The notes beneath the pieces were generated by a model. The model was not told where the DNA came from and did no database searches. It saw nothing but the letters and a program-made list of their open reading frames with translations. Position numbers and translations under genes: made by a program. From Afifella aestuarii (GTDB taxonomy: Bacteria; Pseudomonadota; Alphaproteobacteria; Rhizobiales; Afifellaceae), in contig NZ_SAUF01000001.1 of NCBI RefSeq assembly GCF_004023665.1, positions 792,501 through 856,500 on the forward strand: DNA of 64,000 nt. The letters are read 5' to 3'. This document shows, in pieces, positions 45,672 through 51,419 of the stretch (position 1 is the first letter of the stretch; each line of letters starts with the position of its first letter).

Positions 45672-46442
45672 GTGATCGAAGATCCGTTCTTTTATCTGGT
45701 GGCGGTCCCGGCCGTCATCATGATCGGGCTTTCCAAGGGCGGCATCGGCGGTGCCGGGGCGATGCTCGGTGTGCCGCTCGTCACGCTTGCCATCGATCCG
45801 GTGCGCGCGGCGGCGATCCTCTTGCCGATCCTCGTCGCCATGGATCTCGTCAGTCTCTACGCCTGGCGCGGGGTCTATCAGGCGAAGAGCCTCGCCATTC
45901 TGCTGCCCGGCGCCGCCCTCGGTGTCGGCATCGGCTGGGTGCTCGCGGGCTCGATCGGCGAAGAGGAGATCCGCCTCATCGTCGGTGGGATCGGGCTCGT
46001 TTTCTCTCTCGATCATTATCTCGGGCACTATTTCGGCGGGGAGGCGAAGCGGGCGCCGCGGTCGCATCAGCCGGCGAAGGGGATGATCTGGGGCACCGTC
46101 GCGGGCTTCACGAGCTTCGTCGCGCATGCCGGCGGGCCGCCATTTCAGATGTATATGCTGCCGCTGCGGCTGCCGCCGCCGGTCTATGCGGGCACGTCCG
46201 TGATCTTCTTTGCGGTCGTCAACGCGCTCAAGCTGTTGCCGTATTTCATGCTCGGACAGTTCTCGGCGGCGAACCTTGAAACCTCCCTCGTTTTGATGCC
46301 GCTGGTGCCGGTTGCGACGTTGACCGGGGTCTGGCTGGTCAAGACGGTGTCGCCGAAGTTCTTCTATGCGCTGAGTTATGCACTCGTGCTTCTGGTCTCC
46401 CTCAAGCTCATCTTCGATGCCGGCGTGGCGTTGATGGCCTGA
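45672..46442 (+). CDS. TauE/SafE-family anion exporter
   Basis: 256 residues with eight hydrophobic segments. 'MIGLSKGGIGGAGAMLGVPL' and 'GFTSFVAHAGGPPFQMYML' are the paired signatures of TauE/SafE proteins, proposed exporters of sulfite or organosulfonates. GTG start at 45672. It converges on a second TauE/SafE gene 23 bases after its stop. Confidence 0.86.
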   Translation: MIEDPFFYLVAVPAVIMIGLSKGGIGGAGAMLGVPLVTLAIDPVRAAAILLPILVAMDLVSLYAWRGVYQAKSLAILLPGAALGVGIGWVLAGSIGEEEIRLIVGGIGLVFSLDHYLGHYFGGEAKRAPRSHQPAKGMIWGTVAGFTSFVAHAGGPPFQMYMLPLRLPPPVYAGTSVIFFAVVNALKLLPYFMLGQFSAANLETSLVLMPLVPVATLTGVWLVKTVSPKFFYALSYALVLLVSLKLIFDAGVALMA

Positions 46443-46465
46443 GGTGGCGCCCCGGAACGACGACC

Positions 46466-47200
46466 TCAAAACAGCGCGTCGGCGAAGAGTTTGACGGTGA
46501 TGATGGTGAGGATCGCCAGGATGAGGCGGTCGAAGCTGCCGGGCTTCATGTCGCGGCCGAGCCATTGGCCGAGGCGCATGCCGAGAAACACCGGCACGAG
46601 GGCTGCGATGCTGAGCATGAGGCGCTGCCAGGTGAGAATGCCGGCGAGGGCGAGCGATGGCAGCTGGGCGACGGCAAAGCTCGTGAAAAGAACGGAGACG
46701 GCGAAAACGAATTTCGGACGCTCCAGACGCAGGGCGTTCATGAAGGTGACGCTGACCGGGGCGGAGATGCCGGTCGCGCCTTGCAGGGTTCCGGCGAGGA
46801 AGCCGATGGCCGGGGCGATCTGTGTGGCGCGGGCCATTGCGAGCTTCACCTGGGGGTGCAGGAGGCGGAGCGCGATATAGGCGAGCATGACGAGCGCGAG
46901 CCCGAGCGAGAGGAAGCGGGCGGGCAGGCTCGTCAGGAGAAAGGTGCCCGCGGCAATGCCGATCAGGCTCATCACTACGAGCCGCGGGAGAAAGGGGAGG
47001 TCGGCGCTATGGGCGCGGAACCTCCAAACCTGCGAAAGGTTGGCTGTCAGGATCGGGATGGTCAGGATGGCGATCGCGTAAGGAACGTCGAGAAAAGCCG
47101 CAATGCCCGGTATCGCCACGAGCGGCAGTCCCATGCCGGCGACGCCTTTGATGGTGCCGCCCGCAGCGAGACAAAAGAAGATGACAAGAAGTTCGTTCAA
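46466..47200 (-). CDS. TauE/SafE-family anion exporter (second)
   Basis: 244 residues with about eight hydrophobic segments; 'GGTIKGVAGMGLPLVAIPGI' and 'FLAGTLQGATGISAPVSVTF' are the family signatures. TTG start (47200) with AAGGGCG upstream. It diverges from the GGDEF-EAL gene and converges on the other TauE/SafE gene. The two paralogues are diverged, so they probably have different substrates. Confidence 0.85.
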   Translation of the reverse strand: MNELLVIFFCLAAGGTIKGVAGMGLPLVAIPGIAAFLDVPYAIAILTIPILTANLSQVWRFRAHSADLPFLPRLVVMSLIGIAAGTFLLTSLPARFLSLGLALVMLAYIALRLLHPQVKLAMARATQIAPAIGFLAGTLQGATGISAPVSVTFMNALRLERPKFVFAVSVLFTSFAVAQLPSLALAGILTWQRLMLSIAALVPVFLGMRLGQWLGRDMKPGSFDRLILAILTIITVKLFADALF

Positions 47201-47408: not shown

Positions 47409-49697
47409 ATGATGGAGCACGGTTCACACATATATATCGACCGCCGGGCCGAGCCGGATATCTATGTCTCGCTGGTCAATTCCCTCTACAGCTCGATGCG
47501 ATCGCTGGTCGCAGGAGCGATCGGCGGAACGGCGGCCGTCCTTGTCACGGCGATCCAGATCGGTGGGTTGCCTCTCTATGTGTGTGCCGCAATCATTGCC
47601 GTCGTCGGCTTCCTCCGCGTGGCGGTCGCCTATGCCTTTCGCCAGCGTGGCGGCGAGACGCTGCCGGTGGAGCGGCCGGTTTTGTGGGACGTCCTCTATG
47701 GCATCGGGGCGTGCGCGTTCTCCTTTCTCCTCGGCGTCTGGTGCTACATCTGTCTGGCGTATTATGACGATGTGACCGCACAACTCGTCGCCGTGTCGGT
47801 GACGATCGGCTATTCCGCCGGCATTGCCGGGCGCAATGCGGGCCGCCCGCAGCTCGTTTCTCTGCAAATCCTTTTCGCCTGTCTGCCGCTCGTCACCGGT
47901 TTCGTGGTGGAGGGCGAGCCGCCTTATCTGGCGCTCGGCATGCTTCTCGCCTTCTTCTTCTGGAGCATGCGAGGCGTTTCGATCTCCATCAGCGAGACGC
48001 TGCTTGCGGCCCTGCGTGCGGAAAAAGTGATGACGCTGCTTGCGGGGCGCCTCGAAGCGGCGCTCTCGAGCATGTCGCATGGTGTGCTGATGGTCGATGC
48101 CGATCAAAAGCTGCGGGTCCACAATCAAAGGGCGCTCAGTCTTCTCGGTCTTTCACCTGAATCGATCCGGCATGGCATGCCGATCGGCGAGCTCGTCCAG
48201 GCCTGCGTGCGCGAGGGCGTCTTTTCGCGTTCGGAGCTGAAGCGTTTGCAGGAGCAGTTCACGGTCGGGCGAACGCTGCAGATCGTTACCAACGACCGGC
48301 GCACGATTTCACTCACCAGCGAGCCGGCGAAGGACGGCGGTTTCGTCATCGTCGCGGAGGATGTGACGGAGCGCAAACGCACCGAAGCGCGCATCTCCTA
48401 TATGGCCCATCACGACGAGGTCACGGGGCTGCCCAATCGCGTGCGCCTGAAAGAGGAGCTGGAGCAGTTCCTGCGCAAGAGCGCCGAGGAAAACTCGGCC
48501 TTTGCCGTCTTCTGCGTCGATCTCGATCACTTCAAGAGCGTCAACGACACGCTCGGTCATCCGGTCGGCGACAGCCTGCTTCGCGCAACAGCGCGGCGGC
48601 TCGCCTCCATGACCCGCAAGAGCGATCTTCTCGCCCGCTTCGGCGGTGACGAGTTCGTGCTTCTCGCCTCCGGCGTCACCGACGCCGAACAGGCGGAGCA
48701 ATTCGCGACGCGGGTCATCACGGCCTTGTCGCGTCCTTACGCGCTCAACGGCCACAGCATCGTCGCGGGTGCGAGTGTCGGGGTGGCCTTTGCGCCCAAG
48801 GACGGCTCGAATGCGGATGCGCTCATCAAGAATGCCGATATGGCGCTCTACCGGGCCAAGGCGAACGGGCGCGGGACGTTCTGCGTCTTCCAGCCGGAAA
48901 TGGATGTGCGCGCGCAGGAGCGCCGCTCGCTCGAGATGGAATTGCGCAGCGCCTTCGCCAACGAAGAGCTGGAGCTCTACTACCAACCGCTCCTCAACGT
49001 GCGCAGCCGCACGATTTCCACCTGCGAGGCGCTGTTGCGCTGGCCGCGGGCGGGGCGGGGAATCGTGTCGCCCGGCGAGTTCATTCCGCTCGCCGAGGAG
49101 ATGGGGCTGATCGTGGAGATCGGCGATTGGACGCTGGTGCAGGCCTGCCGTCAGGCCGTGCAATGGCCGGAGGAGATCCGCGTCGCCGTCAACGTCTCGC
49201 CCATGCATTTTCGCCGCGGCGACATCGTCCGCTCCGTCGAGGCGGCGCTCAAGGATTCCGGGCTGCCGGCCGACCGGCTGGAGATCGAGGTCACCGAATC
49301 GGTGCTGCTCGAACAGACCGAGCGCACGCGTCAGGCCCTCGGGGAGCTCGCCGAGATGGGGATCCGCATCTCGCTCGACGATTTCGGCACCGGCTATTCG
49401 AGCCTCGCCTATCTGCAGAACTACCCGTTCCACAAGGTCAAGATCGACCGCTCCTTCCTCTCCGGCCTCGATGCCGATCCGCAACGTCTCATCATGCTGC
49501 GCGGCGTGGCGCGACTTTCCGCCGAGCTCGGGCTGTCCGTGACGCTCGAAGGCGTCGAGCGTGACGATCAGCTCGCCATCGTCATGGCGGACGGCTACGT
49601 CGACGAGGTGCAGGGCTTCCTGATCAGCTGCCCGGTGCCGGCGGAGAAGCTTGGCAGGCTTTTTGCATCGCGGAAAGAAAAGCAGGCGGCTGCCTAG
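47409..49697 (+). CDS. Membrane PAS-GGDEF-EAL protein (diguanylate cyclase/phosphodiesterase)
   Basis: 762 residues: membrane region with about six spans (33-190), PAS-like domain (about 213-325), GGDEF (335-495), EAL (510-755). GGDEF 412-416 is intact and the inhibitory I-site RxxD (R403-D406) is five residues ahead. The EAL domain has E540-A-L, 'DDFGTGYSS' and 'VKIDRSF', so both c-di-GMP synthesis and hydrolysis are possible. ATG 47409 or 47412. The next gene downstream encodes an RpfF-type DSF synthase, and PAS-GGDEF-EAL proteins (RpfR) bind DSF-type signals in Burkholderia; unlike RpfR this one is membrane-bound and has no evident FI domain. Confidence 0.92.
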   Translation: MMEHGSHIYIDRRAEPDIYVSLVNSLYSSMRSLVAGAIGGTAAVLVTAIQIGGLPLYVCAAIIAVVGFLRVAVAYAFRQRGGETLPVERPVLWDVLYGIGACAFSFLLGVWCYICLAYYDDVTAQLVAVSVTIGYSAGIAGRNAGRPQLVSLQILFACLPLVTGFVVEGEPPYLALGMLLAFFFWSMRGVSISISETLLAALRAEKVMTLLAGRLEAALSSMSHGVLMVDADQKLRVHNQRALSLLGLSPESIRHGMPIGELVQACVREGVFSRSELKRLQEQFTVGRTLQIVTNDRRTISLTSEPAKDGGFVIVAEDVTERKRTEARISYMAHHDEVTGLPNRVRLKEELEQFLRKSAEENSAFAVFCVDLDHFKSVNDTLGHPVGDSLLRATARRLASMTRKSDLLARFGGDEFVLLASGVTDAEQAEQFATRVITALSRPYALNGHSIVAGASVGVAFAPKDGSNADALIKNADMALYRAKANGRGTFCVFQPEMDVRAQERRSLEMELRSAFANEELELYYQPLLNVRSRTISTCEALLRWPRAGRGIVSPGEFIPLAEEMGLIVEIGDWTLVQACRQAVQWPEEIRVAVNVSPMHFRRGDIVRSVEAALKDSGLPADRLEIEVTESVLLEQTERTRQALGELAEMGIRISLDDFGTGYSSLAYLQNYPFHKVKIDRSFLSGLDADPQRLIMLRGVARLSAELGLSVTLEGVERDDQLAIVMADGYVDEVQGFLISCPVPAEKLGRLFASRKEKQAAA

Positions 49698-49768
49698 GGC
49701 GGGCCGCTCGCGCCAGGGAATCTCAGCCAAATCACGATTTTGCGGTGCAGCACGGGTTTTCATTTCAC

Positions 49769-49785
49769 AGGTTAAATGTTAACCT
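49769..49785. promoter_or_regulatory. Perfect palindrome AGGTTAA-ATG-TTAACCT upstream of the DSF synthase gene
   Basis: The 7-bp arms are exact reverse complements. It lies in an AT-rich stretch (about 49760-49860) ahead of the rpfF-like start, so it is a candidate operator. TTAA half-sites here resemble CtrA-type sequence but the spacing does not fit its consensus. Confidence 0.6.
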
Positions 49786-49886
49786 TAACAAATCGTTACA
49801 GGCTTGCCGGTACCCTAAAGTTTATATTAACGTCATGAAGTGTTTTGTAATAAGTGTCAGTGTTCCTTCGCGGCGGGGGGTGGAAT

Positions 49887-50885
49887 ATGGCCAGACTTGA
49901 AGCAGCAGCGTTGGAAGTGCGCGGCGAAGATATTATCGGCGGTGAGGAGGCGGCGCGTATATCTGGCGCGATCGCTGCCGGGATGCCGGCGAAAGGTTCG
50001 GTAGAAAGTGTTCGAGCCGCGGTTTCCGAGATTGCGGAGGACGTGCGGGAAGTCGTTCTTTCTTTCGAGCCTGAGAGCGCGACTTTGTGGTCGACCATGG
50101 TGCCGCCGGGTCGGCCGTGCTTTACGCGCCGGCTGGTGAGCGAATACATTCACCTGTTCCAGTCGTTGAATGCGCGCTTCGCAGATGCCGAATCGCTCGC
50201 TCTCAAATACATCGTCTACCAATCCGGAACGCCGTCGATCTTCAGCCTCGGCGGCGATCTCGACCTCTTCTCGCGGTTGATCCGGGCGCGGGACGAGGAG
50301 GGGCTGCGCGATTATGCGCATGCCTGCGCCAAGATGACCTACCTCAATTCCATCAGCGCCGATCTGCCGATCGTGACGATCGCGCTGGTGCAGGGGCAGG
50401 CGCTCGGGGGTGGGCTGGAATCGGCGCTGTCCTGCAATCTCATCGTTGCGGAAAAAAGCGCGACCTTCGGGCTGCCCGAGGTCCTCTTCAATCTCTTCCC
50501 CGGCATGGGCGCCTATTCGTATCTGAGCCGCAAGGTCTCGAGCCGGATCGCGGAGAAGCTGATGCTGTCCGGGCGCACCTATTCGGCGGACGAGATGCTG
50601 GAAGCCGGCGTCATCGACGAGGTGGTGGCGGACGGCACCGGTGAAGAGGCCGTGCGCGACCTGATCGAGCGCTCGCAGCGACGCCACAACGCGCAGGTCG
50701 GCGTCTATCGCACGCGCCGCCGCGTCATGCCGCTCAGCTACGAGGAATTGCGCGACGTCACCGATATCTGGGTCGAATGCGCGCTCGGCATTACCGATCT
50801 CGATCTGCGCAAGATGGAGAAGCTGGTGAAAGCCCAGGACCGGCTCAAAGGCGCCGTGGCCATGCCGGCCGCCGCGCATTCATGA
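49887..50885 (+). CDS. rpfF: DSF synthase RpfF (crotonase family)
   Basis: 332 residues. RpfF makes diffusible signal factor, a cis-2-unsaturated fatty acid, from acyl-ACP by dehydration and thioester cleavage. Signature blocks match RpfF rather than plain enoyl-CoA hydratase: 'SLGGDLDLFSRLIR', 'ALVQGQALGGGLESALSC' and 'FGLPEVLFNLFPGMGAYSYL'. The two catalytic glutamates are E178 and E198, 20 residues apart as E141/E161 in Xanthomonas RpfF. ATG 49887 is preferred to GTG 49854. No rpfC/rpfG pair is nearby; the neighbour is the PAS-GGDEF-EAL protein. The tautomerase gene starts nine bases downstream. Confidence 0.9.
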   Translation: MARLEAAALEVRGEDIIGGEEAARISGAIAAGMPAKGSVESVRAAVSEIAEDVREVVLSFEPESATLWSTMVPPGRPCFTRRLVSEYIHLFQSLNARFADAESLALKYIVYQSGTPSIFSLGGDLDLFSRLIRARDEEGLRDYAHACAKMTYLNSISADLPIVTIALVQGQALGGGLESALSCNLIVAEKSATFGLPEVLFNLFPGMGAYSYLSRKVSSRIAEKLMLSGRTYSADEMLEAGVIDEVVADGTGEEAVRDLIERSQRRHNAQVGVYRTRRRVMPLSYEELRDVTDIWVECALGITDLDLRKMEKLVKAQDRLKGAVAMPAAAHS

Positions 50886-50894
50886 GGATGATCC

Positions 50895-51419
50895 ATGCCT
50901 CTTGCTGAACTGAGACTGACGCGCGGGGCGCTGTCGGACGCGAAGCTCGATATTCTGGCGCGCGATCTGACGGCGATTCTTCTGGAGCATCAGGGGGCGC
51001 GGCCGGGCAGTGCCGTGGCGCGTTCGATCACGCGCCTGGAAGTGACGGAGTTCGAGCCGCGGCGCACCTATGTCGGCGGCAATCTCTCCAATGCGCCCTG
51101 TTACCGGCTCTCCTACACGGTGCCGCTCGGCGCCTTGAACGAGGATAAAAAGCGCTCACTCGTGGAAAAATCGACGAACGCGATCCTGGCCGCGGAAGGC
51201 ACCCCTTTCACCGAGGACGACGCCTACCGGGTCTGGTGTCTGATCGACGAGGTTCCCGACGGGAATTGGGCGAGCGCCGGCAAGGTCTGGCGCTGGCGCG
51301 ACATCATGCGCTGGGTTGCCCGACGCGAGATCGCGGCGCGGCGACAGGAGCGCGATGCGGGCGACGGGAAGCTTCCAGAGCGGGAGCGCAAGACGGGCAG
51401 AACCGGGATCGCCGCCTGA
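50895..51419 (+). CDS. Fused 4-oxalocrotonate-tautomerase-family protein
   Basis: 174 residues. Starts MPLAELRLTRGALSDAKLDI: the Pro after the initiator Met is the catalytic base of 4-OT-fold enzymes. A second beta-alpha-beta unit follows ('YTVPLGALNEDKKRSLVEKS', 'YRVWCLIDEVPDGNWASAGK'), so it is a fused double unit like cis-CaaD or MSAD-type proteins, but the C-terminal tail (140-174) is Arg-rich and extra. Substrate unknown. It is nine bases after rpfF, so it is probably co-transcribed. Confidence 0.78.
   Translation: MPLAELRLTRGALSDAKLDILARDLTAILLEHQGARPGSAVARSITRLEVTEFEPRRTYVGGNLSNAPCYRLSYTVPLGALNEDKKRSLVEKSTNAILAAEGTPFTEDDAYRVWCLIDEVPDGNWASAGKVWRWRDIMRWVARREIAARRQERDAGDGKLPERERKTGRTGIAA

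Follow-up and report, generated by a model that had tools for sequence, protein, structure and literature searches.

The 64,000-nucleotide stretch of the Afifella aestuarii genome analysed here, called the window (NCBI RefSeq assembly GCF_004023665.1, contig NZ_SAUF01000001.1, positions 792,501 to 856,500, forward strand), contains a gene for an RpfF-family crotonase preceded by a gene for a membrane-bound PAS-GGDEF-EAL protein, called the M protein. The locus raises the question whether the two genes form a signalling circuit of the diffusible signal factor (DSF) type, and whether the M protein is its receptor. Passages of a 2015 review count RpfC/RpfG and RpfR as the core routes by which DSF is perceived, two in all (PMC4504480), beside which there are a few accessory receptors. 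We consider a DSF-type cell-cell signalling circuit with the M protein as receptor to be the probable reading of the locus, with a probability of roughly 0.6. A preliminary description of the window had placed the pair in a lineage where DSF signalling is little described, and the portions at hand of the open-licence literature indeed hardly cover it.

The crotonase and the M protein

The features of the pair are as follows; residue numbers in motifs of the M protein count from the start at 47412.

49854..50885, + strand: RpfF-family crotonase, likely a DSF-family synthase, 343 amino acids (aa), GTG start, in-frame ATG at 49887
47409..49697, + strand: M protein, membrane PAS-GGDEF-EAL protein, 762 aa, start at 47409 or 47412, proposed receptor and cyclic di-GMP (c-di-GMP) enzyme
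47412..48032, + strand: N-terminal membrane domain of the M protein, five to six hydrophobic stretches, (G/A)RNAxRP at residues 140-146 (from alignment, hydropathy and a low-confidence six-helix model)
48063..48386, + strand: PAS_7 domain, residues 219-326 of the 762-aa open reading frame (Pfam)
48405..48875, + strand: GGDEF domain with I-site RxxD (Pfam and motif check)
48939..49631, + strand: EAL domain with active-site residues present (Pfam and motif check)

The crotonase matches ECH_1 of Pfam (5.4e-27) and scores 347.8 bits with the curated NCBIfam model PRK08788 (NF006452), well over the cut-off of 177. With the RpfF equivalog model NF053515 it reaches 236 bits and stays under the cut-off of 550; the model apparently represents the Xanthomonas type, because the Xanthomonas-type control L178 passes it (579.7 bits) while the RpfR-type control L173 fails (180.7 bits). 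The best matches in the PDB are 7zq7, a crotonase/enoyl-CoA hydratase family protein (1e-59), and 3m6m, RpfF (3e-59), followed by 5fus and 6dgn. The two glutamates 20 residues apart that the preliminary description had noted along with the RpfF blocks are E189 and E209, which we take to be the equivalents of the catalytic residues of Xanthomonas RpfF. Among 73 RpfF-family rows E209 is conserved in all and E189 in 71. The pocket motifs of the crotonase are kept too. A tree against enoyl-CoA hydratases, suggested earlier as a check, places the crotonase with the RpfF family: the 73 rows split with an SH-aLRT support of 100 from four other crotonases of the same genome (a quick tree with long outgroup branches, the outgroup being four of the genome's six other ECH_1 matches and no further hydratases). 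Judged from these sequence features, the product of 49854-50885 is an RpfF-family enzyme and likely a DSF-type signal synthase.

The M protein matches EAL (3.8e-62), GGDEF (2.8e-48) and PAS_7 (2.1e-20), whereas no Pfam family is matched by the N-terminal ~205 residues at E <= 0.001. In this N-terminal domain the residues R-N-A-x-R-P are invariant across all 16 aligned M proteins linked to rpfF. A structure predicted from two sequences has a mean pLDDT (predicted local distance difference test score) of 55.9, with the transmembrane (TM) part mostly below 60. The intact GGDEF, I-site and EAL reported earlier for this neighbour are confirmed, with the I-site at R402xxD405, GGDEF at 411-415 and the EAL active-site residues present. 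Across the 16 M proteins, those GGDEF and EAL residues that were checked are conserved throughout, save one G411A and one A540C. By its residues, the M protein looks able both to make and to break c-di-GMP.

Distribution of the pair and of RpfC-type kinases

The survey comprised 397 Hyphomicrobiales genomes, sampled evenly out of a larger group and including the 3.9 Mb genome of the window (G000). RpfF-family proteins, called at E <= 1e-45, occur in 54 of them; 52 score over the PRK08788 cut-off and two (G300, G365) below it. Neighbourhoods of 11 to 20 kb were taken for 53 genomes and the window itself for the 54th, and partners were scored within 6.5 kb of rpfF. A contiguous M protein was found in 16 of the 54, the window included, and an RpfC-type kinase together with a REC-GGDEF-EAL protein in 29. 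In two further genomes the kinase is joined by a REC protein that lacks EAL, and four have no partner within this distance but an RpfC-type match elsewhere (G148, G175, G253, and G220 at ~7.5 kb beyond rpfF). In G227 a GGDEF-EAL fragment lies beside rpfF at a contig end; in G186 the contig ends beside rpfF and an M protein stands at the end of another contig (L157, L190). The remaining genome, G124, is taken up below.

The synteny that the preliminary description proposed to look for therefore recurs across the order (16 of 54 contiguous), with adjacency in seven family codes and three gene orders. At 17 loci a single contig carries both rpfF and M, or the M fragment: the five of Afifella have M before rpfF on the same strand, eight are convergent and four have rpfF before M on the same strand. 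The gaps amount to about -1 to 247 bases, approximate values since they were measured between open frames. Both genes adjoin in all five Afifella genomes examined, window included, and hence are not chance open reading frames.

RpfC-type input domains were searched with a profile (A4) at E <= 1e-10 and were matched in 51 of the 397 genomes. Of these matches 35 reach 160 bits or more, all in RpfF genomes; no RpfF genome is among the other 16, which score 64-136 bits. The 54 RpfF genomes thus comprise 35 with RpfC, 18 with M and one with neither (G124). The 18 include G186, where the pair spans a contig break, and G227, whose M protein is truncated before the unassembled TM part and which was assigned by the place of its RpfF in the tree and the score of its GGDEF-EAL fragment. 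At the relaxed threshold of E <= 1e-6 no RpfC-type match was found in any of the 18 M genomes; all six control genomes were positive, although three of them (G005, G007, G043) had contributed rows to the profile. None of the 54 genomes has both RpfC and an rpfF-adjacent M protein. A second profile (A1), built from the M-protein TM domain and run at E <= 1e-8 on the 397 genomes, gives a similar separation: when only TM-family proteins with open frames of at least 650 aa, taken as full-length, are counted, 17 of the 19 RpfF genomes lacking RpfC have one, versus one of the 35 with RpfC (G346). In most RpfF relatives of the order there is thus an RpfC-type kinase, as a rule accompanied by a REC-PAS-GGDEF-EAL regulator; M occurs where RpfC is missing. 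Given that no RpfC-type match exists in 18 of 18 M genomes, another receptor would be needed there, if DSF signalling exists in them.

Both types occur within family codes f1, f14 and f42 and within genus code g124, the M genomes of g124 being G300 and G365 with their RpfF-like proteins under the cut-off. None of 200 bootstrap trees of RpfF gives a single change between M and RpfC. Fisher and hypergeometric p values computed on these counts take no account of shared descent, and the independent switches that support replacement are few.

In the window rpfF is followed, nine bases downstream, by one more gene, which lies beside rpfF in all five Afifella genomes examined:

50895..51419, + strand: tautomerase-superfamily-like protein, 174 aa, beginning Met-Pro

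It scores 27.2 bits with PF01361 over the whole protein (cut-off 22), with no single stretch passing alone, and matches 4-oxalocrotonate isomerase weakly (E 0.0039); among 96 other relatives two have weak matches. The protein might act on the unsaturated fatty acid, but any part in the turnover of DSF is speculative. Upstream of M two TauE/SafE family genes lie on opposite strands (45672-47200). A scan of promoters and terminators gave no promoter-like site and eight terminator-like sites against 4.8 expected by chance, none of which was used.

Comparison with known systems and with the wider TM family

The control set consisted of 19 stretches around rpfF-family matches in other Pseudomonadota, processed with the same neighbourhood script. 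A GGDEF-EAL protein, taken as RpfR, lies next to rpfF in seven (L171-L177), while six (L178-L183) combine an RpfC-type kinase and a REC protein, the latter not scanned for HD-GYP. The others have a kinase alone (L188, L189), another kinase (L184), another GGDEF-EAL protein (L185) or nothing (L186, L187). The kinases of L178-L183 are RpfC-like because the alphaproteobacterial kinase profile matches them, with 298 bits summed over two copies in L178 and 145-169 bits in L179-L183; A4 gives 138 and 134 bits for the copies of L178.

Named genomes were represented by the best 80 loci of at least 569 confirmed relatives; a few of these loci come from records that bear the label of another phylum or class. 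In 17 of the 80 the kinase is accompanied by a REC protein that has no GGDEF-EAL (two of these REC proteins were scanned, both REC-PAS-PAS-kinase). Two have a kinase and an unplaced GGDEF-EAL protein, two a kinase only, one the M protein (Afifella) and 13 nothing, several of the last ending at contig ends. A kinase with a REC-GGDEF-EAL protein is found beside rpfF in 45 of these 80 (L041-L117), as in the 29 order genomes; Xanthomonas has the regulator RpfG, an HD-GYP protein according to passages of the review (PMC4504480), in this place. For the kinase and for the REC-PAS-GGDEF-EAL protein, domains were assigned with Pfam in L045 and L064.

The preliminary description had regarded the locus as an RpfR-like circuit with a membrane-embedded receptor lacking an evident FI domain. 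Its likeness to the RpfF/RpfR systems of Burkholderia and Cronobacter holds for the adjacency of rpfF and a PAS-GGDEF-EAL protein, for the order of GGDEF before EAL, for a one-protein route from signal to c-di-GMP and, at the eight convergent M loci, for gene orientation. RpfR is described as soluble in parts of the review (PMC4504480); according to passages of PMC6361424, its N-terminal FI domain binds RpfF and its PAS pocket contacts the Burkholderia signal BDSF through S169/N172/Y183/R187 and N202. The M protein instead has five to six hydrophobic stretches and lacks an FI match, at 0.2% in hhalign and with no hmmsearch match in 37 M and unlinked TM-family proteins (a file holding no positive control). 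All five BDSF contacts are present in the five RpfR rows that could be aligned (L172-L176; two of seven could not), compared with none of five in the window protein on a weak alignment of the two PAS groups; among 16 M rows only L162 has any (one of five, R187). The PAS profiles of M and RpfR barely match (11-12% in hhalign). In a quick GGDEF-EAL tree of 17 M, 20 unlinked, three RpfR and four REC rows, M and unlinked proteins split from RpfR and REC-GGDEF-EAL proteins with an SH-aLRT of 99. Since FI, BDSF contacts and a common clade are all missing, the identification of M with RpfR was rejected, and the likeness is one of domain order and position.

With the RpfF/RpfC/RpfG system of Xanthomonas the locus shares a membrane-embedded input domain next to rpfF and a c-di-GMP output. 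RpfC has five TM helices and a short N-terminal sensor according to the parts at hand of PMC5391125. Unlike M, which lacks all three by Pfam, it is a histidine kinase with REC and Hpt domains; M was also rejected as an RpfC because it has no RpfC-type input and the window genome no RpfC-type match. A TM input common to M and RpfC is not supported (hhalign 0.8%, a weak test). RpfC-RpfG has been reported in alpha-proteobacteria from KEGG, as passages of PMC8895600 state. The alphaproteobacterial systems with an RpfC-type kinase and a REC-PAS-GGDEF-EAL protein share with the window the RpfF family, the GGDEF-EAL output and a matching PAS domain, but are two-component relays, whereas Afifella has a single membrane protein beside rpfF. 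The accessory receptors RpfS, BCAM0227 and DsfR also sense DSF-family signals; by their descriptions none is a GGDEF-EAL protein, which sets them apart from M.

The TM domain of M is matched in 112 of the 397 genomes by A1. Twenty members not linked to rpfF, 19 of them from genomes lacking rpfF, have the same TM domain; simple patterns find the EAL motif in 20 of 20 and the GGDEF motif in 15. A second protein with an M-type TM domain is present in the window genome, outside the window (G000:C2:426537-427121, a 395-aa frame). A private DSF-sensing TM subfamily was considered and rejected: the gap between linked proteins (> 230 bits) and unlinked ones is by construction, and with a leave-clade-out profile the five Afifella TM domains (171-189 bits) exceed the 20 unlinked ones (at most 159) while the two other left-out clades do not. 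The link between rpfF and M therefore rests on adjacency and replacement. Supported branches in the M and unlinked part of the tree force at least three changes of the M label, so that the pairing formed several times, or formed early and was lost in others.

The proposed circuit and its alternatives

In the proposed circuit, as suggested by family and catalytic residues, RpfF would dehydrate a 3-hydroxyacyl-ACP (acyl carrier protein) and hydrolyse the thioester, giving a cis-2-unsaturated fatty acid. The neighbouring M protein would detect this signal in or at the membrane, through its TM or PAS domain, and binding would shift the balance between phosphodiesterase and cyclase activities. M would stand where RpfC and its regulator, or RpfR, stand elsewhere. 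By analogy with RpfR, a phosphodiesterase response to DSF would be the likeliest. What we infer here comprises the product, the ligand, the direction of the c-di-GMP change and any contact between RpfF and receptor.

A number of observations weigh against this reading. The RpfF-like proteins of G300 and G365 (L169, L170) carry E189D and lack the GMGAYS motif, yet still precede an M protein; to judge from these sequences, they possibly catalyse a changed reaction. G124 has RpfF with neither RpfC nor M, and a GGDEF-EAL protein without the TM domain ~6 kb from rpfF. G346 combines RpfC with its full-length TM-family protein, unlinked to rpfF, and TM-family matches occur in nine of the 35 RpfC genomes in all, the other eight in frames of ~385-436 aa. 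In the Alphaproteobacteria G472 and G532 (L187, L186) RpfF falls inside an M-rich clade, with no RpfC match and no adjacent M; TM-family proteins lie elsewhere in these genomes (best 127 and 121 bits), and in G734, which shares their family code, an RpfC-type match lies ~2 kb from rpfF. The careful RpfF tree needs two changes between M and RpfC, of which supported branches force at least one, and the independent-pairs test, with two pairs on supported branches, has no power. Assembly completeness is 86% for G186 and 85% for G227. The TM family is common without RpfF, with frames of 650 aa or more in 81 of 343 RpfF-less genomes; in the leave-clade-out profile the clade with convergent genes (106-153 bits) and the one with rpfF before M (92-131) score like unlinked proteins, and in the tree the Afifella M protein groups weakly with the latter (87, not starred). 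The PAS profile of M matches the PAS of alphaproteobacterial REC-PAS-GGDEF-EAL proteins at 94.6% in hhalign, and hence is not peculiar to the rpfF pair. Among 16 M proteins the I-site arginine is kept in 10 and the aspartate in 11, which means that the cyclase is not generally subject to product inhibition.

The stimulus of M may be a general one, because its TM family is present in those 81 genomes without RpfF. M could then be a local partner or regulator of RpfF rather than its receptor, anchoring or inhibiting RpfF at the membrane, or answering a different stimulus (oxygen, the state of the membrane, other fatty acids) and only co-regulating signal output; the missing RpfR ligand contacts in the weakly aligned PAS domain fit this. 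We regard it as unlikely, although it is the strongest of the alternatives, in view of the receptor adjoining rpfF in control loci L171-L183 and of the 18 paired genomes without an RpfC-type match. Somewhat less plausible still is a crotonase that makes no signal and serves membrane lipids or detoxification by trimming or remodelling acyl-ACP or acyl-CoA, with c-di-GMP control coupled to that metabolism. The low NF053515 score, the tautomerase-like gene in Afifella and the altered residues of the G300 and G365 homologues speak for it; the RpfF of the RpfR-type control L173, however, is also under that cut-off, the catalytic glutamates and pocket motifs are kept, and many relatives stand beside RpfC-type receptors.

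A diverged RpfR whose FI domain was exchanged for a membrane domain would account for the common PAS-GGDEF-EAL order and for the eight convergent loci, arranged like those of RpfR. This view is largely refuted and very improbable: M groups with TM homologues from RpfF-less genomes, apart from RpfR in a quick tree with three RpfR rows, and neither FI nor the PAS profiles connect the two. Five close Afifella genomes could share one accident, in which case the neighbourhood would be due to chance or hitch-hiking and have no functional link; the survey, with adjacency in seven family codes and three gene orders, contradicts this, a random EAL neighbour is unlikely in a genome with 16 EAL matches, and we give it hardly any credence.

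The receptor reading can be extended, tentatively and at somewhat less than even odds, to a further core class of DSF receptor. In several Hyphomicrobiales lineages, membrane PAS-GGDEF-EAL proteins would then take the place of RpfC/RpfG and RpfR; they may have been drawn repeatedly from a widely distributed family of sensors for membrane-borne fatty acids in general, present also in bacteria making no DSF. The portions at hand of the open-licence DSF literature (including PMC8357829, PMC3715506, PMC6361424, PMC12838280, PMC8895600, PMC10226988, PMC4504480 and PMC5391125) do not describe the rpfF-M pair. If true, DSF perception by a single membrane protein would form a third core route beside RpfC/RpfG and RpfR. 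DSF-type signalling would be extended within the Alphaproteobacteria, where it is hardly mentioned in those portions of the literature, and a ligand class would be suggested for a common family of orphan c-di-GMP sensors.

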